Shown here: positions 2,105-32,656 of the stretch, one piece after another
How positions within the stretch are numbered: the stretch's first letter is position 1
How the letters are laid out: the number at the start of each line of letters is the position of its first letter
Source: Lentisphaerota bacterium
GTDB lineage: Bacteria; Verrucomicrobiota; Kiritimatiellia; UBA8416; JAUUYL01
Direction of reading: 5' to 3'
Assembly (NCBI GenBank): GCA_030590485.1
Contig: JAUUYL010000024.1
Span: forward strand, 1 to 34,893
DNA: 34,893 nucleotides
Translations under genes and position numbers: made by a program
The notes under the pieces: model-generated
Databases searched by the model: none
What the model was told of the DNA's origin: nothing
Seen by the model: the letters and a program-made list of their open reading frames with translations, nothing else

Positions 2105-4312
2105 ATGAGTATAATTACAGCGATATTGATTTTGATTGCTACCGCGATGCTTTTCGCGGTCAGTATAACTGTATACGTTTCGATACGAAAACAGGATAAT
2201 TCCGAGCGGATCCGTTTGACGGCACAGAATAAGATGCTGCGACAGGAGAACTCCGAGCTATTAGAGAAGGAGAAGAAACTGCTTTCTCAGGTGGAATGGC
2301 ACAAGGCGGTGTTCAGTAATACCGAGGATATGGTTTTTGTCCATAGTCTTGATTCGGACATGACACCGGGGTCTTTTATAGATGTAAACAATGTGGCATG
2401 CGAGCGGCTTCAATATAGTCATAGTGAACTGCTCAAGATGCGACCCATGAATATAGGCTATGATGAGTCCACGGCGTCGGTCCTGGGTTTCAGTACGTCT
2501 GACATGGTCATGATGACTGATTCTGCAGTGCAGGAACGTGAGACGAAAATATCACTTCGTCCGATTCAGAACATGATGAAGAGGATTCTTGACGATGAAG
2601 AGGTTGTGTATGAGCGCAAGTATGTCGCAAGGGACAAGACTGAGTTTCCGGTAGAAGTTCGGGCTCGTAGTATAAAGATGCAGGGGAAGAGTTATGTCCT
2701 TTGTACCGCTCATGACATTACCAACAGAAAAGAGACTCAGGACGCTCTGCATGAGAGTGAGGTTCGTTTTCGCAGCTTCTTTGAGCATTCTCCGATTGGT
2801 GTTGCGATATATGATGCGAATAAGAAACTCGGAAACGTTAATGTTTCGTTTACCAGGGTGCTGGGGATACCTGACAGGGAGCAGTTCAAGCGTTTTGATA
2901 TCTTTAATTTCCCGTTTATCCCGGAGCATGTAAGGGAAAAGGTGAGGACCGGTGAGAGTGTGCGCCTGAACATAGATGTGGACTTCGATGAGGTACGCGA
3001 GAAGGCGATGTTCATATCAACACGCACGGGAATAGGGCACTTGGACCTGATGATCAGTAATATGGGTCGGGGCAGAAACAGGCAAGCCAGGGGATATCTT
3101 GTCCAGATTCAGGACAATACCCAGACGAACGAAGCTGAATCAGCACTGAGACAGAGTGAGAAGCAGTTGCGTCAGGCTGAGAAGATGGAGGCGATAGGTT
3201 CGATGGCTGGTGGTATTGCGCATGACTTTAATAATATTCTCACGCCCATACTTGGATATACTGAGCTTGCATTGCGGATGTGTGGTGAAGATGAGAATAT
3301 GAGCAAGTTCATGCAGGAGATCATGAAGGCGAGTCATCGCGCGAAGGATCTGGTGAATCAGATACTCACCTTCAGCCGTCAGAAGGACAAGGATGGTCAG
3401 CCTATAAGACTGTTGCCGATAGTGAAGGAAGTGATGACCCTCATGCGTGCATCTTTGCCTGAGAGTATTGAGATTAAGCGGATTATAAAAGTTGAGCATG
3501 ATATTGTGCTGGCTGACCCGACCCAGATGCATCAGGTACTCATGAATTTATGTACCAATGCCTGGCATGCAATGAAAGAGAAGGATGAAGGGGTGCTTGA
3601 GGTCAGGGTAAGTGATTTTGTTCATGAGAAGGGTGCGCGAGGTCGGATTACAGATCTGGAATCAGGACGTTATCTGCAGGTGTCGGTATGTGATACGGGC
3701 ATGGGCATGACAGAGGCTATTCAGGAACGAATCTTTGATCCGTTCTTCACCACGAAAAAGACAGGTGAAGGAACAGGCATGGGCTTGTCTGTTGTGAGAA
3801 ATATCATAACGGCCGTCAAGGGCAGGATTATTGTTGATTCCACGGTTGGGGAGGGCTCTGAGTTTCATGTTATCCTTCCGGTAATAGAAGATAATGCCAT
3901 GGATAAGATGCAGATAAACATGCAGCCGCTCCGCACGGGTAATGAGACTGTGTTGCTTGTTGATGATGACCCCAGTATTCTTGAGATGGTGGCCCGCATG
4001 CTTGAGACTCTGGGCTATAAAGCAGTTACAGCTGCTACGGGAAACGATGCATTCGAAGTTTTTAAAGAGACGCCTGAAAAGTTTGATGTTGTTCTTACGG
4101 ATCAGGTGATGCCCGGTATGCTGGGTAACGAGCTGGCATCCGAGATATTTGCGATAAGACCTGAACTGCCTATCATCTTGTGTACGGGGTTCAGTGAATC
4201 GGTTGCAAAGGATAACGTTCAGGCGGTAGGTATAACTGATTTCCTTAGAAAGCCTATCATCATGCGCGACCTTTCCGATGTCATCCGGAATGCGCTGGAA
4301 GCCAAGGCATAA
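2105..4312 (+). CDS. membrane-anchored hybrid sensor histidine kinase (PAS-PAS-HisKA-HATPase-REC)
   Basis: A 735-residue protein with an N-terminal membrane helix at about 2-25, a short coiled coil and two PAS-like sensor regions (about 60-210 and 218-350). The phosphoacceptor His373 lies in GGIAHDFNN. It is followed by the N box (LMNLCTNAWHAM), the G1 box (CDTGMGM), the F box (FDPFFTT) and the G2 box (GEGTGMGLS). A C-terminal receiver domain carries the acidic DDD cluster, phosphoacceptor Asp666 in LTDQVMPG and the KP motif. Such kinases autophosphorylate on His and pass the phosphate to their own receiver. No separate response regulator or DNA-binding output lies next to it, so the partner is unknown. 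I chose ATG 2105 because the ATG at 2093 falls inside a palindrome; neither has a good ribosome-binding site. Confidence 0.92.
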   Translation: MSIITAILILIATAMLFAVSITVYVSIRKQDNSERIRLTAQNKMLRQENSELLEKEKKLLSQVEWHKAVFSNTEDMVFVHSLDSDMTPGSFIDVNNVACERLQYSHSELLKMRPMNIGYDESTASVLGFSTSDMVMMTDSAVQERETKISLRPIQNMMKRILDDEEVVYERKYVARDKTEFPVEVRARSIKMQGKSYVLCTAHDITNRKETQDALHESEVRFRSFFEHSPIGVAIYDANKKLGNVNVSFTRVLGIPDREQFKRFDIFNFPFIPEHVREKVRTGESVRLNIDVDFDEVREKAMFISTRTGIGHLDLMISNMGRGRNRQARGYLVQIQDNTQTNEAESALRQSEKQLRQAEKMEAIGSMAGGIAHDFNNILTPILGYTELALRMCGEDENMSKFMQEIMKASHRAKDLVNQILTFSRQKDKDGQPIRLLPIVKEVMTLMRASLPESIEIKRIIKVEHDIVLADPTQMHQVLMNLCTNAWHAMKEKDEGVLEVRVSDFVHEKGARGRITDLESGRYLQVSVCDTGMGMTEAIQERIFDPFFTTKKTGEGTGMGLSVVRNIITAVKGRIIVDSTVGEGSEFHVILPVIEDNAMDKMQINMQPLRTGNETVLLVDDDPSILEMVARMLETLGYKAVTAATGNDAFEVFKETPEKFDVVLTDQVMPGMLGNELASEIFAIRPELPIILCTGFSESVAKDNVQAVGITDFLRKPIIMRDLSDVIRNALEAKA

Positions 4313-4330
4313 AGCATAAATGCTTTATGC
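4307..4330. terminator. perfect palindrome over the kinase stop codon
   Basis: Arms GCATAAAGCAT and ATGCTTTATGC (11 bp each) enclose a 2-base loop; the TAA of the kinase is in the left arm. There is no U-run, so termination or mRNA 3'-end protection are both possible. Confidence 0.5.
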
Positions 4331-4367
4331 AGATGATTGGTTAATATGATGATTGGAATAAATATCT

Positions 4368-4392
4368 AATTAAACTGCAGGGCAGTTTAATT
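4368..4392. terminator. bidirectional terminator candidate between convergent genes
   Basis: Perfect inverted repeat with arms AATTAAACTGC and GCAGTTTAATT and a 3-base loop. It includes the stop codon of the nuclease gene on the minus strand, and its A/T-rich outer ends could serve both strands. Confidence 0.6.
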
Positions 4393-4974
4393 GTCCGTGT
4401 GCGATTTATCCAGTCTTTGGATTTCGTCGCGCAGTTTGGCGGCGTCTTCGTAGCGTTCTTCTTCCACGGCTTTATCCAGGTTGTCCTTGAGTTTTTCCAA
4501 GGGTGTGGCGCTATCGACGGCGCCCTGAATATTCAACTCGTCCAGAGCCACGTTGGGGTCTAATTGAGCTGCATCCTTATCGGACATAACTATACTGGCT
4601 TCGTTCATGACTTCATTGTGAACGAAGATCTGGGCGTTGCAACGCAGGGCAAGAGCTATTGAATCGCTCGGCCTTGCGTCCATCTGTAGTTCTTTGCCTC
4701 CTTGATCAAGAATGAGATTGGCGTAAAAAGTCCCGTTTTCAAGCCTGTGTATCTCTATTCGCGTCAGTCTACATTCGAGAAAATCGAGCATATTTTTAAG
4801 TAAATCATGGGTAAGCGGTCTTGGCATCTCTACTTTATTGATGAAAATGGCAATAGATTGCGCTTCCGCGGCACCAATAACGATTGGTAGCGCCCTGTCG
4901 TCATCTAGACTCTTGAGGATAATCGCAAATCCCACATTTGAGAGAAGAAGTTGTTCGACTTTAACGTGTATCAT
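4387..4974 (-). CDS. bifunctional nuclease (BFN/DUF151) with C-terminal UVR motif
   Basis: The 195-residue protein begins MIHVKVEQL, as members of this family usually do, and carries the BFN core (LPIVIGAAEAQSIAI, RPLTHDLL, ARPSDSIALALR). Members have been described with DNase/RNase activity. The C-terminal ~35 residues (LEKLKDNLDKAVEEERYEDAA-KLRDEI region) form a UVR helical hairpin, the UvrB-UvrC contact motif, which suggests a link to nucleic acid repair or to Clp-type partners. An upstream in-frame ATG at 5031 would add 19 residues not typical of the family. A second ATG at 4989 is possible. The gene stands alone and converges on the sensor kinase. Confidence 0.9.
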   Translation of the reverse strand: MIHVKVEQLLLSNVGFAIILKSLDDDRALPIVIGAAEAQSIAIFINKVEMPRPLTHDLLKNMLDFLECRLTRIEIHRLENGTFYANLILDQGGKELQMDARPSDSIALALRCNAQIFVHNEVMNEASIVMSDKDAAQLDPNVALDELNIQGAVDSATPLEKLKDNLDKAVEEERYEDAAKLRDEIQRLDKSHTDN

Positions 4975-5407
4975 AGCGGTTTCTTTCATAAAAAAGCCCA
5001 TCATCCAGTCTGGGTATTCCAAAGGGCCCAAATTTTACTCGCGCAACGCGATAACGATGTCCATAGACATTAGCGTGGCCCCGTCTTACCAAACCGAAAG
5101 ATGGGTACCAGTTAAAAAGCATAATTCATACCATTCAACTTTTACATAGTATATTGCCGGGTAAAAAAATCAACGGCAATTATTTTTGCTAGGAAAAATA
5201 AACTTTTTAAATAAAAGGATCATTTTTTTCTGCAAAATCAGGCTGAAAAATACTCGAAATGTTCGCATCAGTGCGAATGCTGGAAAATTGTTTTGCAGAA
5301 GTGATAAGAGTGGACTGTGGATGGTTATCCCGCACAGTCTTACGGTCCCACAGTCCGCAGTCCGTATTTGATGTTGTAATACGCGTGGTGAATTGTTAGA
5401 AATATTC
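4975..5407. other. 433-bp divergent intergenic region with hairpins and a heptamer array
   Basis: It separates the divergent nuclease and top6B genes. It holds an A/T-rich stretch (5160-5250), a TTCGCA-TCAG-TGCGAA hairpin (5262-5277) and an inverted repeat GGACTGTGG / CCACAGTCC (5312-5320 and 5348-5356). The right arm of the repeat belongs to an array of CAGTCC units spaced 8, 8 and 7 bp (5336-5365). No convincing gene is present. Confidence 0.6.
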
Positions 5408-7138
5408 ATGGCTAAGAAAAAGGGTAAGGCGGAAACGGCAGAAAGCATGGCGCAGAAACAGCGCGAGATTTCTGTCTCAGAATTCTTCTTGAAGAACCGC
5501 CATCTCCTGGGGTTTGACAATCCTCGCAAGGCGTTGTTGACTACTGTTAAGGAAGCGGTCGATAATGCACTTGATGCTTGTGAGGAAGCAGGGATCGTTC
5601 CGGAGGTCAGTGTTGATATACAGCAGGTGGGTAATAACAGATTTGTCGTTTCTATTGCTGATAATGGACCCGGGGTAGTGAGGGCGCAGATACCCCGGAT
5701 TTTCGCTAAACTTTTATACGGCTCCAAGTTTCATCGTCTTCGCATGTCGCGTGGTCAGCAGGGAATAGGTATCAGTGCGGCGGGAATGTATGGTCAGCTG
5801 ACAACGGGTTGTGCAACGCGTATTTTATCCAAGACAAAGGGCAAGAAGAACGCGCACCTTATCGATGTTCAAATTGACACGAAGAAGAATAAGCCCACGA
5901 TACTGAAGGACGAGGAACTTGAATGGTGCCCTGAATTTTATCCTACAAAATCGGACGGGAAACAGAGTAAAACCGTAAAAAGTGTCTCTGGAACCTGCGT
6001 TTCCATAGAAATGGAGGCTTCTTACGTTCGTGGCAGGCTGTCAGTGGATGAGTATCTGAAGCAATGCGCCGTGGTGAATCCGCATCTGCAGCTTCACTAT
6101 AGGGTAGCTTTAGCTAAGGCTAAAGCAGGCAATGGGCAACAGGCAATAGGCAATGGGGCAGAAAAGAAAGGGGAAAAGGGCGCAGAGGAGGGGGCTGCGA
6201 ATGAAATCCCGTGGATTACTTTCTTCAGGGTTAATAAGGAATTGCCGGAAGCACCTGGAGAGATCAAGCCGCATCCGCATGGGGTTGAACTTGGATTGCT
6301 GATGCAGATGCTGAAAGATTCGACGGCGCGCACTATTAGGTCTGCCTTGGCTCAGGATTTTTCAAGAGTAAGCAGTGCCACTGCATTGAAGATATGTGAA
6401 ACTGCGGGTGTAAGTCCAAAGGCACGGCCGGCAAGCATCGCACATCGCGAAAGTGAGTCTCTCTTCAAGGCAATCAGCGAAACTAAGTTAATGCGTCCTC
6501 CTACTGATTGTCTTTCGCCGATTGGCGAGGACCAGATTATTGCGGGTTTAAAAAAAGAGATCACGGCTGATTTCTTCACAGCGGTAACGCGTCCGCCGAC
6601 TGTGTACCGGGGCAATCCTTTTCAGATAGAGGTGGGGATAGCGTATGCCAAGCCGGGTGAGAACGAAGATCTTGGCGCGGAAGATCCTGTTCGGGTAATG
6701 CGCTGTGCGAACAGAGTGCCTCTACTTCATATGGGTGGCGCCTGTGCGATATCGAAAGCTATCTCCGGTGTCAACTGGAAGACTTATGGACTTTCTCAGC
6801 CGAGAGGGTCTCAACCGGTTGGGCCAATGGTTGTCATGGTCCACATGGCAAGCGTATGGGTGCCGTTTACAAGTGAGAGCAAAGAGGCCATAGCGCATTA
6901 TCCTGAAATCATAAAAGAAATCTCTTTCTGTTTGCAGGAATGTGGACGCAGACTTTCGGTCTATTTGAAAAAGAAGAAGCGCTTGATGGAAGTAGAACGT
7001 AAGCGCGATTACATGGCAATGTATATTCCGCACATGGCGTTGGGCTTAAAGGAGATACTTGACTTGAGTGACAAACAGGAAAAGACGGTAATAAAGAGTT
7101 TGAATAAGATGTTGGAGAAGACACATTTAGAGGCGTAA
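5408..7138 (+). CDS. top6B: type II DNA topoisomerase VI subunit B
   Basis: The 576-residue protein is the ATPase and transducer subunit of topoisomerase VI, which passes one duplex through a double-strand break made by subunit A. It has the GHKL ATP-binding motifs: N box EAVDNALDAC (Glu49, Asn53), DNGPG at 85-89 and GQQGIGIS from 116. A conserved transducer region near the C-terminus contains VPFTSESKEAIA, including a conserved lysine. The ATG at 5408 (MAKKKG) is preferred over the TTG at 5393, because the A subunit begins in the same way. A low-complexity insert at residues ~234-265 (Ala/Gly/Asn/Gln/Glu/Lys-rich) is encoded by a palindrome plus a heptamer array and interrupts the normal domain order. 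Topoisomerase VI is typical of archaea and plants and patchy in bacteria. top6A follows. Confidence 0.96.
   Translation: MAKKKGKAETAESMAQKQREISVSEFFLKNRHLLGFDNPRKALLTTVKEAVDNALDACEEAGIVPEVSVDIQQVGNNRFVVSIADNGPGVVRAQIPRIFAKLLYGSKFHRLRMSRGQQGIGISAAGMYGQLTTGCATRILSKTKGKKNAHLIDVQIDTKKNKPTILKDEELEWCPEFYPTKSDGKQSKTVKSVSGTCVSIEMEASYVRGRLSVDEYLKQCAVVNPHLQLHYRVALAKAKAGNGQQAIGNGAEKKGEKGAEEGAANEIPWITFFRVNKELPEAPGEIKPHPHGVELGLLMQMLKDSTARTIRSALAQDFSRVSSATALKICETAGVSPKARPASIAHRESESLFKAISETKLMRPPTDCLSPIGEDQIIAGLKKEITADFFTAVTRPPTVYRGNPFQIEVGIAYAKPGENEDLGAEDPVRVMRCANRVPLLHMGGACAISKAISGVNWKTYGLSQPRGSQPVGPMVVMVHMASVWVPFTSESKEAIAHYPEIIKEISFCLQECGRRLSVYLKKKKRLMEVERKRDYMAMYIPHMALGLKEILDLSDKQEKTVIKSLNKMLEKTHLEA
6107..6160. 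repeat. palindrome plus heptamer array inside top6B
   Basis: GCTTTAGC-TAAG-GCTAAAGC (6107-6126) is followed at once by GGCAATG-GGCAACA-GGCAATA-GGCAATG (6128-6155) and a degenerate fifth unit. The word is the reverse complement of the TGCCTAT array at 130-156. The segment is translated in frame as part of a low-complexity stretch of topoisomerase VI subunit B. Confidence 0.85.
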
Positions 7139-19856: not shown

Positions 19857-20699
19857 CTATGCTCCGAGTTGGTAACGTGCGAATCTTTTGACTGTTATGG
19901 TATCGCCCAGCTCTTTAGATTTCTCTTCAAGAAGTGCGGTGATGGTCATCTTGTCTTCTCTTACGAATGCCTGGTTTAAGAGGCATGTCTCACCGAAGAA
20001 CTTCTGCAGTTTTCCATCAACGATCTTGCCGATAATATTTTCCGGCTTACCTTCGACTTGTTTCACATAGATTTCGCGCTCAGCAGCAACGATGTCTTCC
20101 GGTATTTCGTCGGAAGTAAGGTATTTTGGGTTGATTGCGGCTACATGCAGAGCAAGATTCTTTGTAAGCTCCTGATACGCATCGCTGTTGACTGTCTCTT
20201 CTTTTTCGCATCCTACTTCAACGAGTACGCCTACTTTACCGCCGAGATGGATATAAGGGGTTACGCTGCCGTTGCCTTCGAGTGTGTACTTGGTGTCGTG
20301 TTTGATGACGATCTTTTCGCCGATAGCGGCAATGATGTCCATCAGTGCGCCCTTGGTGTTCTCGTCGTCGGCGATGCTTCCGTCAGCCGCGAGAGCCTTA
20401 GCGGAGAGATCAGTTACGAATGCCTGAAAATCAGCGTTCCTGGCAGTGAAGTCTGTCTCGCAGTTTACTTCGACGAGTGACGAGCATGTGCCGTCATCCG
20501 TGCTGGATGATGCGATCATACCGCAGTTTGTCTCTTTTGATGCGCGTTTTGCTGCGACGGCGACACCTTTTTCACGAAGGAGCTTAGTTGCTTTCTCTAT
20601 ATCGCCTTCGCTCTCGACGAGGGCGCGTTTGCAGTCCATCATGCTGACGCTTGTTGCGTCACGAAGCTCTTTTACTAGTGATGCTGTGATTTCAGCCAT
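19857..20699 (-). CDS. tsf: elongation factor Ts
   Basis: The 280-residue nucleotide exchange factor regenerates EF-Tu-GTP. It has the N-terminal UBA-like domain (LVKELRDATSVSMMDCKRAL), then the TDFTARNADF core motif and the usual C-terminal subdomains. Length is normal. Its ATG overlaps the rpsB stop (TAATG), so the pair is translationally coupled. Confidence 0.98.
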   Translation of the reverse strand: MAEITASLVKELRDATSVSMMDCKRALVESEGDIEKATKLLREKGVAVAAKRASKETNCGMIASSSTDDGTCSSLVEVNCETDFTARNADFQAFVTDLSAKALAADGSIADDENTKGALMDIIAAIGEKIVIKHDTKYTLEGNGSVTPYIHLGGKVGVLVEVGCEKEETVNSDAYQELTKNLALHVAAINPKYLTSDEIPEDIVAAEREIYVKQVEGKPENIIGKIVDGKLQKFFGETCLLNQAFVREDKMTITALLEEKSKELGDTITVKRFARYQLGA

Positions 20700-21886
20700 T
20701 ATTTCTTCTCCTTCTTATCTTCCTTGGCTTTTTTATCTGCTTTAGGGGCAGGCTTCTCAGCTTTGGGAGAGTCTTTTTTGATTTTAGTTGTTTTAGATTT
20801 TTCTTTTGTCACCTTCTCAGCTTTGGCGGCGGTTTTCTTTGCAGGCTTTGCTTCGGCAGGCTTTTCTGTTTCTTTGGCTTCAGCCTTGTCGTCCTCGACC
20901 TTTTTGGCGGGTTTTTCTGCCTTATCCGCGGCCTTTGCTTCGGGCTTATCTTTCTTGTCTACCTTTTTCTTATTGCTTTCAGCTTTGGCTTTCTTGTTGG
21001 CCTCTCTGGCGGCATCTTTCTTTGCTTTCTCAGCTTCTTTCTTGGCTTTTGCTGCAGCGTCGGCTTTTGCCTGGGCTTTCTTTTCAGCTTCGGCTTTAAC
21101 TTCGGCTTGCTTCTTGGCAATTGCTGCCACTTTCTTTCTGTACTCGGCGTTAGCGCCCTTCGCGATTTCCGCGATAGCTTCGAGTATAAGTTTGATTGAG
21201 CGAATAGAGTCATCGTTGCCTGGAATGACGAAGTCTATTGCGTCTGGATCACAGCAGGTATCCACGATGGCAATAACCGGAATACCCAGCTTGTTGGCCT
21301 CGTTGACGGCTATAGACTCCTTGTTGATATCGACAACAAATACGACGCCTGGGTTTTCAGCCATGTCGGCTATGCCGAAAAGGTTGCGTGCGAGTTTCTC
21401 GTGTTCGCGGCGGAGGCGTGAGGCTTCCTTCTTATGCGCGTTAAAACCTTCCTTTGTTTGCATGTCTTCCAGTTCACGCATACGTTTGACGCTTTTTCTG
21501 ATTGTCGAGCTGTTTGTGAGGGTTCCGCCGAGCCAGCGTGAGTTGACATAGAACTGTTCGCAATCAACGGCGATGTCTTTGACGACAACTTGAGCCTGTT
21601 TCTTTGTTCCTACAAACAGGACCTTTTTTCCGCTTAGAACAGTCTTGTAGATGTAGTCAAGAGCTTCGTTAAGCAGGGCAAGGCTTTTTGTGAGGTCAAT
21701 AATATGTATGCCGTTGCGCTTGTCAAATATGTAGCGCTTCATCTTAGGGTTCCAGCGTTTTGTCTGGTGGCCAAAATGCAATCCTGCATCAAGCAGGTCT
21801 TTGATTTGGACGTTCTTTGAGGCTTTTTTCTCGGTTTCCGGCTTTGCTTCTGTCTGCTCTGGGGCAGTTGTATCTGTATCGGCCAC
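20699..21886 (-). CDS. rpsB: 30S ribosomal protein S2 with a ~150-residue Lys/Ala/Glu-rich tail
   Basis: Residues ~25-245 are a normal S2 (QIKDLLDAGLHFGHQ, KRWNPKMKRYIF, FVGTKKQAQ, DTCCDPDAIDFVIPGNDD). After that comes a ~150-residue extension made almost only of Lys, Ala, Glu, Asp and Pro (PAKK, EKPAEAKPAKK), giving 395 residues against about 240 in E. coli. Histone-H1-like or PAKKA-type tails of this kind bind nucleic acid. The start is GTG at 21886 with a strong AAAGGAG site. It heads the rpsB-tsf operon. Confidence 0.97.
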   Translation of the reverse strand: MADTDTTAPEQTEAKPETEKKASKNVQIKDLLDAGLHFGHQTKRWNPKMKRYIFDKRNGIHIIDLTKSLALLNEALDYIYKTVLSGKKVLFVGTKKQAQVVVKDIAVDCEQFYVNSRWLGGTLTNSSTIRKSVKRMRELEDMQTKEGFNAHKKEASRLRREHEKLARNLFGIADMAENPGVVFVVDINKESIAVNEANKLGIPVIAIVDTCCDPDAIDFVIPGNDDSIRSIKLILEAIAEIAKGANAEYRKKVAAIAKKQAEVKAEAEKKAQAKADAAAKAKKEAEKAKKDAAREANKKAKAESNKKKVDKKDKPEAKAADKAEKPAKKVEDDKAEAKETEKPAEAKPAKKTAAKAEKVTKEKSKTTKIKKDSPKAEKPAPKADKKAKEDKKEKK

Positions 21887-23654: not shown

Positions 23655-24728
23655 CTATTTCGAATCGTCTAAGCCCAGCCTATTTGCCATACCATTTACA
23701 TCAAGGAGATCAACTTCTATTGTTGATATGGTTGCCTCTGAGAGATTCAAGTTTCTCGCGGCTTCAAGCGCTACAATCACATTACCGCCACTGCCCTGCA
23801 TCGCCTCATTCCTTAGCCGCTCACCTTCTGCCTGAGCTGTCTTCACCAGCAAATCACCTTTCGCCTGGTTTGCAGCCTTAATAAGATCGGCATCAGCAGT
23901 CTTCTCAGTGCTGTACTTTTTGTATTGAGCCTGAATCTTTGCAACCTCCAAATCAGTAGACGCTTGCATCGTAACAAGCTCCGCTTCTTTTTCCTTAACA
24001 ATAATTGCCAGAAGTTTTAATGTTTCTGCCTCTATAACTTGCGTCTTGCCACTCATCTCTGCAGCTTTTGCAAGGGAGATATTGAGTCTCACTTCTTGGT
24101 CAGCCAGTTTTTTCTGCCTAATCTTGGCTTCGTATTCAGGGTCAAATTCGACATCTCTAATAAGGACATCCAGTACCTCAATATAGTTATCCTTCAGCGA
24201 TGCTCTCAACACTTCCTGAACCTTGACCGCGGTATCTCTCTTTGCGGCTGGATCATAAAACTCTTCAGTGGACAGCTTGCCGAATAAACTCATGCATGTT
24301 TCCTCTGATTCAACTCTGACAATGGTTCTGTATTTTGTCCCTTTGCCCGTGTCTCCGTAAAGTTTGTGCGCATCGCCTTTGGCAACACGGTATTTCACAG
24401 TTACGTCCAGCGAGATATTGTTACCCTCGACAGACTGTACTTTAACATCATCACGAGTTCTTGCAGCTCCATGCCTTGGATCCTTAGTCATTTCAAGCGT
24501 CTGGACAGTACTGTCGTAGAGTTCCCATTGGTCAATCGGGCCAAAGTCGCGGTGCCAGCCCTGATTGAAATCTTTTTGAACAACTCCCTTCTTCCCAATC
24601 ACACTGTACTGCTGTATACGCACACCTACTTGACCCACTGGTATAAAGATCAACAATGAACGAGCGACTATGTATGCGCCCATCACCATTGCTACAATCA
24701 CAACTGATATTACTTTGATAGTTTTCAT
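23655..24728 (-). CDS. SPFH/band 7 membrane protein (second of a pair)
   Basis: The 357-residue protein has an N-terminal membrane helix (about 7-32), an SPFH/prohibitin-homology domain (about 30-215; includes DVTVKYRV and a TEEFYDPA segment) and a long helical C-terminal region (about 215-330) rich in Ala, Glu and Lys. SPFH proteins assemble into large membrane rings or scaffolds. It is a paralogue of the preceding operon gene: both have TEEFY and KKLADQ at matching places. This suggests a hetero-oligomer in the manner of HflK/HflC or prohibitin 1/2. No NfeD partner is present. It is the last gene of the operon, 27 bp after the first SPFH gene. Confidence 0.88.
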   Translation of the reverse strand: MKTIKVISVVIVAMVMGAYIVARSLLIFIPVGQVGVRIQQYSVIGKKGVVQKDFNQGWHRDFGPIDQWELYDSTVQTLEMTKDPRHGAARTRDDVKVQSVEGNNISLDVTVKYRVAKGDAHKLYGDTGKGTKYRTIVRVESEETCMSLFGKLSTEEFYDPAAKRDTAVKVQEVLRASLKDNYIEVLDVLIRDVEFDPEYEAKIRQKKLADQEVRLNISLAKAAEMSGKTQVIEAETLKLLAIIVKEKEAELVTMQASTDLEVAKIQAQYKKYSTEKTADADLIKAANQAKGDLLVKTAQAEGERLRNEAMQGSGGNVIVALEAARNLNLSEATISTIEVDLLDVNGMANRLGLDDSK

Positions 24729-24755
24729 TATATTTCTCCTGTTAACAAATGTTAC

Positions 24756-25877
24756 TTATTTCCGAAAAACGCCACCTGAAGCCTGACCAGCCTTCAGATG
24801 TTCAAAACGCGTTGTCAGCCCATCTACGATAAATGGCTGACCCGTGAACTTGATATCATGAAGCCTCTTGGCATATTCAAGCCGAACCATATTCTCTCCG
24901 CCTTTCCCCTCCAACGCTTTGTTCAGTTTCTTGATGCCTTCTGCGTCGGCTTTCTTGATCGCCAATGTTCCTTTTGCAAGTTTCTCCATCTGGTAGAGCT
25001 TTGCGAGGGCGGCAACTGTTTCTTTTTCATAGTAAGCATCAGCCAGCTTTCTCACCCGCTCAGATGTGGCTTCTTCAGCGATTGTCAGCTGCTTCATTGC
25101 ACCTTCAAATTGCTCTATGGCAACTTTTTTCTTGTTGCCCTCTATCACTATTGCGGTCAACTGCTTCTGCTTAGCTGCGTTGGCTTTTGACTGCTCTTCA
25201 AGAACGGCCTGATCGGCGAGCTTCTTCCTTTTGATCATAGCCTCATATTCAGCATAGAAAAGCGGACGCCTCGGTATGACAATACTGTCTATTCTTATCC
25301 CAAAAGGCTGAAGTCGCCGGTTTGCCTCGATCTTTGCCTGACCGACCTTGCCAGCTCTCAAGGAAGCATTATAAAACTCCTCAGTCTGAAGCTCTCCGAG
25401 ACTGTTACGACAGATTGATCTGATGTAGTCACGCGCCCATTTCATTTTGTACAGGTCGCCGGGGCCGGATGTCTTCAGTATCACCTCTGCCATATCAGGA
25501 TCTATTCTGTACTGAATTTTGAGGTCAACAAACACGTCACTGCCGTCAATCGTCTTTATTTTCAGGTCATCCTTACCTCTTCTGTCGCCAGTTCCTACGG
25601 TAGCCGTCATCTCCATCGTTTGAAGCGTCTTGTCGATAACATAGAATTCCTTTGTCAGGCCGTTAAAGATTTGCGCACCTGAATTTGGTATGACTGTGAT
25701 TTCACCCGAGATTTTGTTCAACAAGAACCCGATCTCCTCACCGCTTACCTGCTCAACACGCACAAGGTTGAAAACGAATATCATTACGCACAGGAATGCC
25801 ATGCCAACCCATATTAGCTTCCCCCCTAAGACTTTTTGTATTGCCTCTATGTCCACGTTGTTTTGCTGATCATACAT
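24756..25877 (-). CDS. SPFH/band 7 membrane protein (first of a pair)
   Basis: The 373-residue protein has a ~20-residue cytoplasmic leader and one membrane helix (about 20-43). The SPFH domain follows (about 43-230; VDLKIQYRI, LQTEEFYNAS), then a helical C-terminal region (about 230-345) with the RKKLADQAV motif shared with its neighbour. It probably builds a membrane scaffold with its paralogue, encoded 27 bp downstream. It follows the zinc-ribbon membrane protein gene by 25 bp. The lack of any protease gene nearby argues against a simple HflKC-FtsH set. Confidence 0.87.
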   Translation of the reverse strand: MYDQQNNVDIEAIQKVLGGKLIWVGMAFLCVMIFVFNLVRVEQVSGEEIGFLLNKISGEITVIPNSGAQIFNGLTKEFYVIDKTLQTMEMTATVGTGDRRGKDDLKIKTIDGSDVFVDLKIQYRIDPDMAEVILKTSGPGDLYKMKWARDYIRSICRNSLGELQTEEFYNASLRAGKVGQAKIEANRRLQPFGIRIDSIVIPRRPLFYAEYEAMIKRKKLADQAVLEEQSKANAAKQKQLTAIVIEGNKKKVAIEQFEGAMKQLTIAEEATSERVRKLADAYYEKETVAALAKLYQMEKLAKGTLAIKKADAEGIKKLNKALEGKGGENMVRLEYAKRLHDIKFTGQPFIVDGLTTRFEHLKAGQASGGVFRK

Positions 25878-25902
25878 TTTGCTTCTCCTAATGGTTTATC
25901 TG

Positions 25903-26733
25903 TTATTCTTCAACTTTCTTACGTCGGCGCCATATCACCACTGACATAGCCGGCCCGATAATGGCAAGCAACAACAGTAGAAAAGGGAATGGTATACCAT
26001 AAAAAGCCAAACATACCATTGCTAAAAAAAGAAACCCCAAGCTGATCATGATTTTTGTTATCTTGATCTCAATTTCTTCCATAACCGAAGCGGGGTAGCT
26101 CATGATTACATCCATATTGGAATCATAATAATCACGCGGGTATTCCACCTCCGGGAAATGATATCTGACTACGCCCTGCTCTCGGTCAAGCTCCTGCTTG
26201 ACGGAATGATTGATAGCCATTTTCTCCAGCTTCTTCCTGGTGCTTCTCAATGTATATGGCGAGGTTCCTGCAAGAGCATCAGCCTGAACACAGCTGCCCT
26301 TTGCGGTTGCATGATACAGAAAATCATGTTCGTATGCCGCGTATGCAGGCCAACCGGTCGTTTCCGCAAGATTGTTCATCTCGCTATGAAGCAGATCTGA
26401 ACATTGATTGCAAATTACAGCCTTGCTCTCTCGATGCATCGCCGTGTCGCAGCCAATACAATGCTCCGCATTCAACATGTCAGACTCTTTCTTTCGATCT
26501 TTGAACGCCGTGAACTCATACTCGGCATAATCACTGCCCGGCATCTTCGTCACAGTTGTGCCGTCCACCATCTGGTTTAAAGCATCTTGTACGATGCCGA
26601 TAGATAACGGAAGGTAAGGCAATACATGACTGGGTGTTATCCGGCCTGAATTCTTCTCCGCAACACGGCGAGATATATTTTCAATAATATTGAGTGCACC
26701 GTCGCTTAGCTTGCTTGCTGCTGCTTGAGCCAT
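25903..26733 (-). CDS. membrane-anchored zinc-ribbon protein of unknown family
   Basis: A 276-residue protein with a helical N-terminal part (about 1-70) whose pattern fits a winged helix. A four-cysteine zinc-binding unit with two CxxC pairs follows (CIGC and CNQC, about 20 residues apart). A second helical and basic segment (about 110-200) may be another winged helix. Two adjacent membrane helices lie near residues 225-270, with a cytoplasmic RRRKK tail. The ATG at 26733 has a clear GGAGG site; the ATG at 26757 precedes that site and is rejected. I do not recognise the family. Its place between a PspA-like gene and two SPFH genes suggests it links a cytosolic signal or nucleic acid to the membrane; this is inference. 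Confidence 0.7.
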   Translation of the reverse strand: MAQAAASKLSDGALNIIENISRRVAEKNSGRITPSHVLPYLPLSIGIVQDALNQMVDGTTVTKMPGSDYAEYEFTAFKDRKKESDMLNAEHCIGCDTAMHRESKAVICNQCSDLLHSEMNNLAETTGWPAYAAYEHDFLYHATAKGSCVQADALAGTSPYTLRSTRKKLEKMAINHSVKQELDREQGVVRYHFPEVEYPRDYYDSNMDVIMSYPASVMEEIEIKITKIMISLGFLFLAMVCLAFYGIPFPFLLLLLAIIGPAMSVVIWRRRKKVEE

Positions 26734-26782
26734 CTCCCTACCTCCATCGTATTGCATATGTAGTTGTGATTAAATTCGCGAA

Positions 26783-27178
26783 CTAGAGTGAGTTTAGATA
26801 TTCTTCGAGCTTTCCGTATTTCTTAGAGACACCTGTATGGGCATCCGCGGCATCATTCAGGCTTGAGCCCGCCGCTATCTGCTCACCTCGCACTTGCGCC
26901 TCCTTCAGTAGTCCTTCAAGTTTATTCAGAAGCTCTTTCTGCGCTATTGTCGATTCAGTCGCCTTTTCCAACTCAGCCGCTAATTGATCAGCGCCTTCCT
27001 CAACACGAGTCCTTAATCTGTTTTCGGCGGATATTGATTTTGCCGCTTCTGTTCGAATCGTGATAGCGTGTTGTTCAAGCGCTCCGATCAATTCAGCGAT
27101 AAGATCACTAGGCTCCATGGCTCGCAGGAGCATATCATTGATATTGATTGCCAGTGTCTGTCTCATTTTCTCCAGCAT
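26783..27178 (-). CDS. short PspA/Vipp1-like coiled-coil protein
   Basis: A 131-residue, almost wholly helical protein. Its first ~65 residues follow the PspA/IM30 pattern closely: an ININDMLLRAMEP segment like the NIN..L.KAEDP of PspA, then L...I..LEQ......TEAAKSISAENRLRTRVEE. PspA is ~220 residues, so the C-terminal helices are missing or reduced and replaced by a short tail. PspA-family proteins are ESCRT-III-like and form rods and rings on stressed membranes. ATG 27178 is set five bases after GGAGG; ATGs at 27181 and 27190 are possible. It is the first gene of the four-gene operon. Confidence 0.7.
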   Translation of the reverse strand: MLEKMRQTLAININDMLLRAMEPSDLIAELIGALEQHAITIRTEAAKSISAENRLRTRVEEGADQLAAELEKATESTIAQKELLNKLEGLLKEAQVRGEQIAAGSSLNDAADAHTGVSKKYGKLEEYLNSL

Positions 27179-27235
27179 CATGTCCTCCATCCTGATGATT
27201 TGATCCAGACTACATCAATCGGGTGCAAGCCCGCC

Positions 27236-27262
27236 ATTATAATATTCAGCTATTTCTGTAAA
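27236..27262 (-). promoter_or_regulatory. sigma-70-type promoter candidate for the PspA/SPFH operon
   Basis: On the minus strand TTTACA (27262-27257) and a perfect TATAAT (27241-27236) are separated by 15 bp, about 57 bp upstream of the ATG at 27178. The spacer is short, so the -35 is uncertain. A sigma-54 site, as used by E. coli pspA, is not seen. Confidence 0.45.
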
Positions 27263-27477
27263 GAATCCCGAGGGGCAATGTCATTCGAATCCTGCTTAGA
27301 GCCTTGTTTAAGGGTGTGTTTTGGCTTGTCCTGTCTGCCCTGAAACAGAAATATTTGGCGTAACATATTGCGGGGGAGTATGTTGGAGGTTTCCTCCTTT
27401 GCTTTTCGGTATTGTTTTTGTAATGATTAAACGAATGAAGAAAGAGCGTCGTGCTGCAACCGCTTGAGGAGGCGTTT

Positions 27478-32572: not shown

Positions 32573-32656
32573 TGCCGGGGGGGGGACTCGAACCCCCACA
32601 CTGTTACCAGCGCCAGATTTTGAGTCTGGTGCGTCTGCCAATTCCGCCACCCCGGC
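32573..32656 (-). tRNA. tRNA-Leu(CAA)
   Basis: On the minus strand the 84-nt sequence has acceptor arms GCCGGGG / CCCCGGC, a D-arm with GGCAGAC, and anticodon stem-loop CCAGA-CTCAAAA-TCTGG, giving anticodon CAA. It has a variable arm of leucine type (GCGCTGGTAACAGTG) and T-loop GTTCGAGTC. The discriminator is A; CCA is not encoded. A T-run follows. Confidence 0.96.

Follow-up and report, generated by a model that had tools for sequence, protein, structure and literature searches.

The minus-strand locus at positions 23655 to 27190 of a contig from a Lentisphaerota bacterium (JAUUYL010000024.1, whose entire stretch of 34,893 nucleotides was analysed and is called here the window) raises the question of whether a shortened relative of the phage-shock protein PspA, a membrane protein of no named family and two SPFH proteins work together, and if so, at what task. 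The answer that we favour, and that we regard as evenly poised between right and wrong, is that the locus is an operon for a phage-shock-type membrane-maintenance module, in which the product of gene 2 is an adaptor, the two SPFH proteins form a ring and the short PspA has a regulatory role. The argument is built on the conservation of genes 2, 3 and 4, on the homology of gene 1 to PspA, and on a second locus at which the same three genes stand beside two full-length PspA genes and a PspF-like gene.

The operon

The four genes lie in minus-strand open reading frames listed in the window at 27190-26783, 26757-25903, 25877-24756 and 24728-23655. The best-placed Shine-Dalgarno starts are the ATG codons at 27178 and 26733, each of which is preceded by GGAGG. 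They give gene 1 (PspL) a length of 131 amino acids (26783-27178, minus strand) and gene 2 (ZnR) a length of 276 amino acids (25903-26733, minus strand); an alternative start at 27190 would extend gene 1 to 135 amino acids, and the frame of gene 2 could begin at 26757. With the starts chosen in this way, the gaps between successive genes are about 50, 25 and 27 bp, the same values that had led the first-pass annotation to describe a single unit, and the interpretation of genes 1-4 as one same-strand operon is supported.

The promoter of the operon is expected in the upstream intergenic region (27179-27477, minus strand), which holds the GGAGG ribosome site just before 27178. A promoter candidate had been noted upstream of gene 1, and it was not reproduced: a simple consensus scan, which does not exclude a promoter, found neither a sigma-70-like nor a sigma-54-like site there. 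An Rfam scan found no family within the operon. The draft genome to which the window belongs, as contig C12, measures 2.63 Mb and is the sole member of its family in the search set.

Conservation of genes 2-3-4 and the link to the phage-shock response

The distribution of the operon was mapped by scanning an 84,980-species genome collection with SPFH1, the product of gene 3, which yielded 80 loci. SPFH1 has gene 2 before it at 12 of these, one of which (L096) is cut by a contig end inside SPFH1. Outside the window, the full trio of gene 2, SPFH1 and SPFH2 is present, with the order unchanged, at 12 loci, namely the other 11 of these and L047 (genome G356); two further handles, L048 and L049, denote the same genomic places as the collection loci L080 and L071. 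The taxa that bear the trio are Lentisphaerales, Opitutales, Kiritimatiellales and one bin labelled Desulfobacterales (L059). The conserved core of the operon is thus genes 2-3-4. The four-gene order that had been put forward as a unit is not what recurs: SPFH2 directly follows SPFH1 in 34 of the 80 collection loci, mostly in the absence of genes 1 and 2, and PspA is added to the trio at L059 alone. Within the window's own order, relatives that carry the SPFH pair have no gene 2. On the SPFH1 tree the window clusters with L059 and the f14/f15 clade (support 95/89), while the gene-2-positive loci are scattered, and the presence and absence of gene 2 require at least 7 changes, which suggests a history of repeated loss or transfer.

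The locus L059, from the bin SI037S2_bin45, consists of a divergent PspF-like gene, an intergenic site, two PspA genes, gene 2, SPFH1 and SPFH2, in that order. The divergent gene encodes a sigma-54 activator that matches PspF better than any other family (5e-100, 335 bits, below the equivalog cut-off of 443.55), and both PspA genes are full-length (TIGR02977, 8e-35 and 4e-33). The intergenic sigma-54-like site, TGGCACAGGACTTGCT, agrees with the consensus at 11 of the 12 positions, for which Markov resamples give a p of about 0.001. The combination of a PspF-like gene, a sigma-54-like site and two PspA genes ties the module to the phage-shock response, and it bears out the connection with membrane stress that the first-pass annotation had drawn. 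The module is rare in the class to which L059 is assigned, since a search of 389 other genomes of that class returned no clear gene 2, but only one weak match riddled with stop codons.

In the window genome, the 13 matches to the PspF model all lie in open frames of at least 386 amino acids and none is above the cut-off; no PspF-sized activator adjoins the operon. The sigma-54 gene rpoN is present and is broken by contig ends, and its apparent splitting was rejected as an artefact of those ends. The window's class also contains a classical PspF-PspA-PspB-PspC locus (L050 in genome G138, positions 3050-5538), in which PspF and PspC are above cut-off.

The shortened PspA

Gene 1 encodes a PspA-like protein made up of the equivalents of PspA helices 0-3 only. 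Its similarity to PspA is specific but weak, and falls below the curated thresholds of the standard models: the Pfam PspA model gives 16.9 bits (E 0.0049) against a cut-off of 33.9, and the NCBIfam PspA models give 24.1 and 23 bits (best E 2.4e-5) against cut-offs of 336 and 242.95. A profile built from local full-length PspA proteins gives gene 1 a score of 29.7 bits, and the best of 4000 composition- or heptad-preserving shuffles of gene 1, which measure sequence similarity rather than function, scores 11.8. The alignment joins residues 5-134 of the 135-amino acid version to profile positions 3-131 with one single-residue shift. These scores uphold the original observation that a protein of about 131 residues matches the N-terminal part of PspA, and they indicate that gene 1 is, along its whole length, a homologue of PspA residues 1-131. 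The frame stops at the equivalent of approximately PspA residue 131, without helices 4-5, and gene 2 starts about 50 bp further on.

AlphaFold2 models the protein as a helix at residues 2-18 followed by one long helix at residues 23-130, with a predicted local distance difference test score (pLDDT) of 89 and a predicted template-modelling score (pTM) of 0.41. A match of this structure to PspA/ESCRT-III had been named as a check, and no significant one was found, the top entry being Vipp1/PspA at E 2.9, in a search that a long helix renders uninformative. No relatives of gene 1 were found in viral contigs, and a gene-1-like match in genome G011 was rejected as PspA because it sits in a radical-SAM-type protein. 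The helix 1-3 hairpin of IM30 binds membranes by itself and is basic, with an isoelectric point (pI) of 9.43 (PMC12636044), whereas filaments of Vipp1 require helix 5 (PMC8281802). Canonical ESCRT-III-type polymerisation of the gene 1 product is accordingly predicted to be unlikely, because helices 4-5 are missing.

A reader may ask whether such a protein does anything at all. It is conceivable, though we think it somewhat unlikely, that gene 1 is a decaying and functionless remnant of a full-length PspA like those of L059, and that the working unit consists of genes 2-3-4. This would fit the restriction of PspA beside the trio to L059, the lack of any PspA above the Pfam cut-off in the 20 genomes searched in the window's order (0/20), the loss from the gene 1 alignment of the PspA hairpin-turn motif KGRDDLA, including the turn glycine, and the reduced amphipathicity of helix 0. 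A decaying gene is harder to reconcile with an intact frame, a well-placed ribosome site, G+C contents at the three codon positions (0.60/0.37/0.46) that resemble those of the neighbouring genes, and similarity to PspA that extends over the whole length.

The SPFH pair

Gene 3 (SPFH1; 24756-25877, minus strand) encodes a Band_7 protein of 373 amino acids with one N-terminal membrane helix and a C-terminal coiled-coil, and gene 4 (SPFH2; 23655-24728, minus strand) encodes a paralogue of 357 amino acids with weak similarity to HflC. Both exceed the curated Band_7 cut-off of 23.6 bits in Pfam (gene 3 with 46.5 bits and 5.7e-12, gene 4 with 76.4 bits and 3.8e-21), as would be expected of the paralogous SPFH scaffolds initially described. 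Relatives of gene 3 with 58-60% identity occur in the window's order and class.

The frequent occurrence of the pair without genes 1-2 implies a separate function for the pair, and this has to be set against a phage-shock role for the whole operon. The pair may instead be an HflK/HflC- or prohibitin-like system, concerned with FtsH-type proteolysis or membrane domains, with the PspA-like gene and gene 2 as accessories, rather than primarily a phage-shock system; we consider this doubtful. In its favour, the draft genome has no Band_7 matches other than genes 3 and 4, and the two adjoin in the order SPFH1-SPFH2 at 34 of the 80 collection loci. Profile comparison with solved chains weakly reaches prohibitin for both genes, and also HflC and erlin for gene 4, which in addition matches the HflC model (3.7e-4, 19.4 bits), with homologues reaching 1.8e-6. 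All of the HflK/HflC matches are, however, far below the curated cut-offs (134.4 bits for HflC), and gene 3 does not match the HflK equivalog model. The retention of gene 2 beside the pair across distant orders, and the joining of the trio to PspA and a PspF-like gene in L059, also speak against such a reading.

The loci L088-L132 (Desulfobacterota, Omnitrophota and others) are mostly adjacent SPFH pairs with the SPFH1-like gene second, unlike the pair of the type seen in the Planctomycetes-Verrucomicrobia-Chlamydiae (PVC) group. At L065 (6027-7073) SPFH2 is spread over two frames, a possible disruption or sequencing error, and at L040 and L041 more distant SPFH homologues adjoin genes that resemble ABC transporter permease genes.

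The tandem-winged-helix protein

Gene 2 is the member of the operon from which an adaptor function is predicted. Neither Pfam nor NCBIfam provides a family above cut-off for it, which agrees with its earlier description as a protein of no recognized family. An alignment was assembled from 13 members (the window and 12 further homologues, all of which adjoin SPFH1), and the AlphaFold2 model computed with it (pLDDT 87, pTM 0.79) contains a winged helix, a ribbon-like linker, a second winged helix and a hydrophobic hairpin. On the minus strand these correspond to winged helix 1 (residues 9-76, 26506-26709, from the model), a CxxC-12-CxxC zinc-ribbon-like element seen in the sequence (Cys 92, 95, 108 and 111; 26401-26460), winged helix 2 (residues 126-196, 26146-26358, from the model and profile comparison) and a two-helix C-terminal membrane hairpin (residues 214-269, 25927-26094, from hydropathy and the model) followed by a basic RRRKK tail. 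Sequence, hydropathy and model therefore agree with the two CxxC pairs, two winged helices and membrane hairpin that were first proposed.

Comparison of their profiles with hhalign (E 7.6e-6, probability 84) shows that the two winged helices are homologous. The four cysteines are intact in 5 of the 13 homologues (the window, L059, L055, L056 and L096), degenerate in those of Opitutales and absent from two Lentisphaerales sequences, so that zinc does not appear to be essential to the family and its zinc ribbon is, judging from the alignment, optional. From the basic tail, the C-terminus is predicted to lie in the cytoplasm, which would place the winged helices there as well.

A Foldseek structure search with gene 2 produced no match that reached E 0.001. 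Its best hits, to human ESCRT-II chains (E 0.016 and 0.027), align about 200 columns; superposition on these chains is poor (template-modelling scores of 0.21-0.27, root-mean-square deviation 14), and MarR-type regulators and generic winged-helix proteins almost equal them in score; no ESCRT-II Pfam match was found in gene 2. That gene 2 is a membrane-bound transcription regulator, with winged helices that bind DNA and a hairpin that senses the state of the envelope, is improbable: many MarR-type DNA-binding winged helices appear in the structure search, the recognition-helix region of winged helix 2 is basic in close homologues (LRSTRKKLEK in the window, LRRMRVKLDR in L059) and the zinc ribbon of the comparable protein YdjG is of a kind described as DNA-binding (PMC9239133), but none of the structural matches reaches E 0.001, winged helix 1 lacks a basic recognition helix, the protein has a pI of 5.8 and the strict linkage to the SPFH pair suits an adaptor at least equally well.

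The likeness to ESCRT-II bears on a more specific form of the adaptor role. In eukaryotes ESCRT-II recruits ESCRT-III, which belongs to the superfamily of PspA. Gene 2 resembles the ESCRT-II subunits in its predicted tandem winged helices and differs from them in its additional membrane hairpin, and, as stated, the structural match is not significant. Makarova and colleagues have proposed that an ESCRT-III protein and a winged-helix protein were combined in early ESCRT systems, have noted links to SPFH proteins, and have argued for an old partnership of winged-helix and SPFH proteins with the ESCRT-III/PspA superfamily (PMC10936438), which makes an ESCRT-II-like reading of gene 2 worth testing, yet not shown. 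That gene 2 is an ESCRT-II-like membrane-anchored adaptor which recruits or nucleates PspA on an SPFH patch, and that the PspA of the window is a naturally truncated, non-polymerising form, is a long shot in our estimation.

A possible mechanism

In the phage-shock-type module that we favour, SPFH1 and SPFH2 would assemble into a hetero-oligomeric prohibitin/HflKC-like ring that organises a patch of membrane. The C-terminal hairpin of the gene 2 protein would anchor it in the membrane and leave its two winged helices on the cytoplasmic side, and the protein would serve as an adaptor through which a PspA-family (ESCRT-III-like) protein is brought to the SPFH patch. In the full form, represented by L059, remodelling of the membrane would be carried out by two complete PspA proteins under the control of PspF and sigma-54. 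In the organism of the window PspA has been cut to helices 0-3 and probably cannot build an ESCRT-III-type polymer, so this small protein would most likely bind to the membrane or to the adaptor and cap or regulate the SPFH/gene-2 complex.

Several observations weigh against this proposal. The sole other locus at which PspA joins the trio, L059, comes from one metagenome bin that is possibly misassigned, and the majority of relatives hold the SPFH pair without genes 1 and 2. AlphaFold2 draws gene 1 as a straight helix and not as a hairpin, at the low pTM given above. The hairpin region of gene 1 has a net charge of -6 and a pI of 4.9, unlike the basic hairpin of IM30, and the amphipathic moment of its helix 0 is 0.30, compared with 0.48-0.57 in full PspA; this acidic region and weak moment argue against direct electrostatic binding to the membrane.

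Comparison with known systems

The closest described arrangement is the pspA-ydjGHI operon of B. subtilis, which encodes PspA, a zinc-ribbon membrane protein, YdjH and the SPFH protein YdjI (PMC8581546, PMC9239133), and in which localisation of PspA at the membrane requires YdjI and the membrane proteins YdjG and YdjH (PMC8581546). According to PMC11237479, where the operon is printed ydjFGHL, YdjG contains two zinc ribbons, an NTF2-like domain and a transmembrane segment, and the band-7 protein has a zinc ribbon at its C-terminus. The operon of the window has the same order of PspA, zinc-ribbon membrane protein and SPFH/band-7 protein. It differs in having two membrane-anchored SPFH proteins, a shortened PspA and no YdjH-type gene that could be seen, and gene 2, with its single ribbon between two winged helices and its membrane hairpin, differs from YdjG as judged from the published description and not from sequence. 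A Pfam scan of gene 2 and its homologues at E up to 1 did not find the TF_Zn_Ribbon domain named for YdjG. Of the two features that the first-pass annotation had called new, the zinc-ribbon bridge is therefore anticipated by pspA-ydjGHI, although with a different domain make-up, and the truncated PspA retains its novelty. A zinc-ribbon membrane protein combined with PspA and SPFH has a precedent; what is new is the tandem-winged-helix adaptor, the SPFH pair and the short PspA.

As in the classical PspF-PspABC system, a PspF-like gene, a sigma-54-like site and PspA occur together at L059, where they immediately precede genes 2-3-4; in comparison with the classical locus L050 the trio occupies the place of PspB and PspC. 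The window departs from the classical system in lacking a PspF-sized activator and a detected sigma-54-like site upstream. Genes 3 and 4 resemble the HflK/HflC and prohibitin pairs in being two adjacent Band_7 paralogues, both of which possess an N-terminal membrane helix as well as a coiled-coil, and differ from HflK/HflC in scoring below the family cut-offs and in being linked to gene 2 and sometimes to PspA.

Other features of the window

The window also contains a tRNA gene at 32573-32656 on the minus strand (Rfam RF00005, 59.3 bits) and an rpsB-like gene at 20699-21886, whose product of 395 amino acids has a long Lys/Ala-rich C-terminal extension.

Implications

For the still poorly understood recruitment of PspA to damaged membranes in bacteria other than Proteobacteria and Firmicutes, the conserved trio, which has no name in Pfam or NCBIfam and in one genome accompanies two PspA genes and a PspF-like gene, supplies concrete candidates. 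The truncated PspA is a natural counterpart of the helix 1-3 fragments made in the laboratory. A bacterial operon with ESCRT-III-type, winged-helix and SPFH proteins would in addition be a direct test case for the proposal of PMC10936438, and if gene 2 were indeed ESCRT-II-like, bacteria would possess an ESCRT-like toolkit that comprises a winged-helix adaptor, an ESCRT-III-type protein and an SPFH scaffold.

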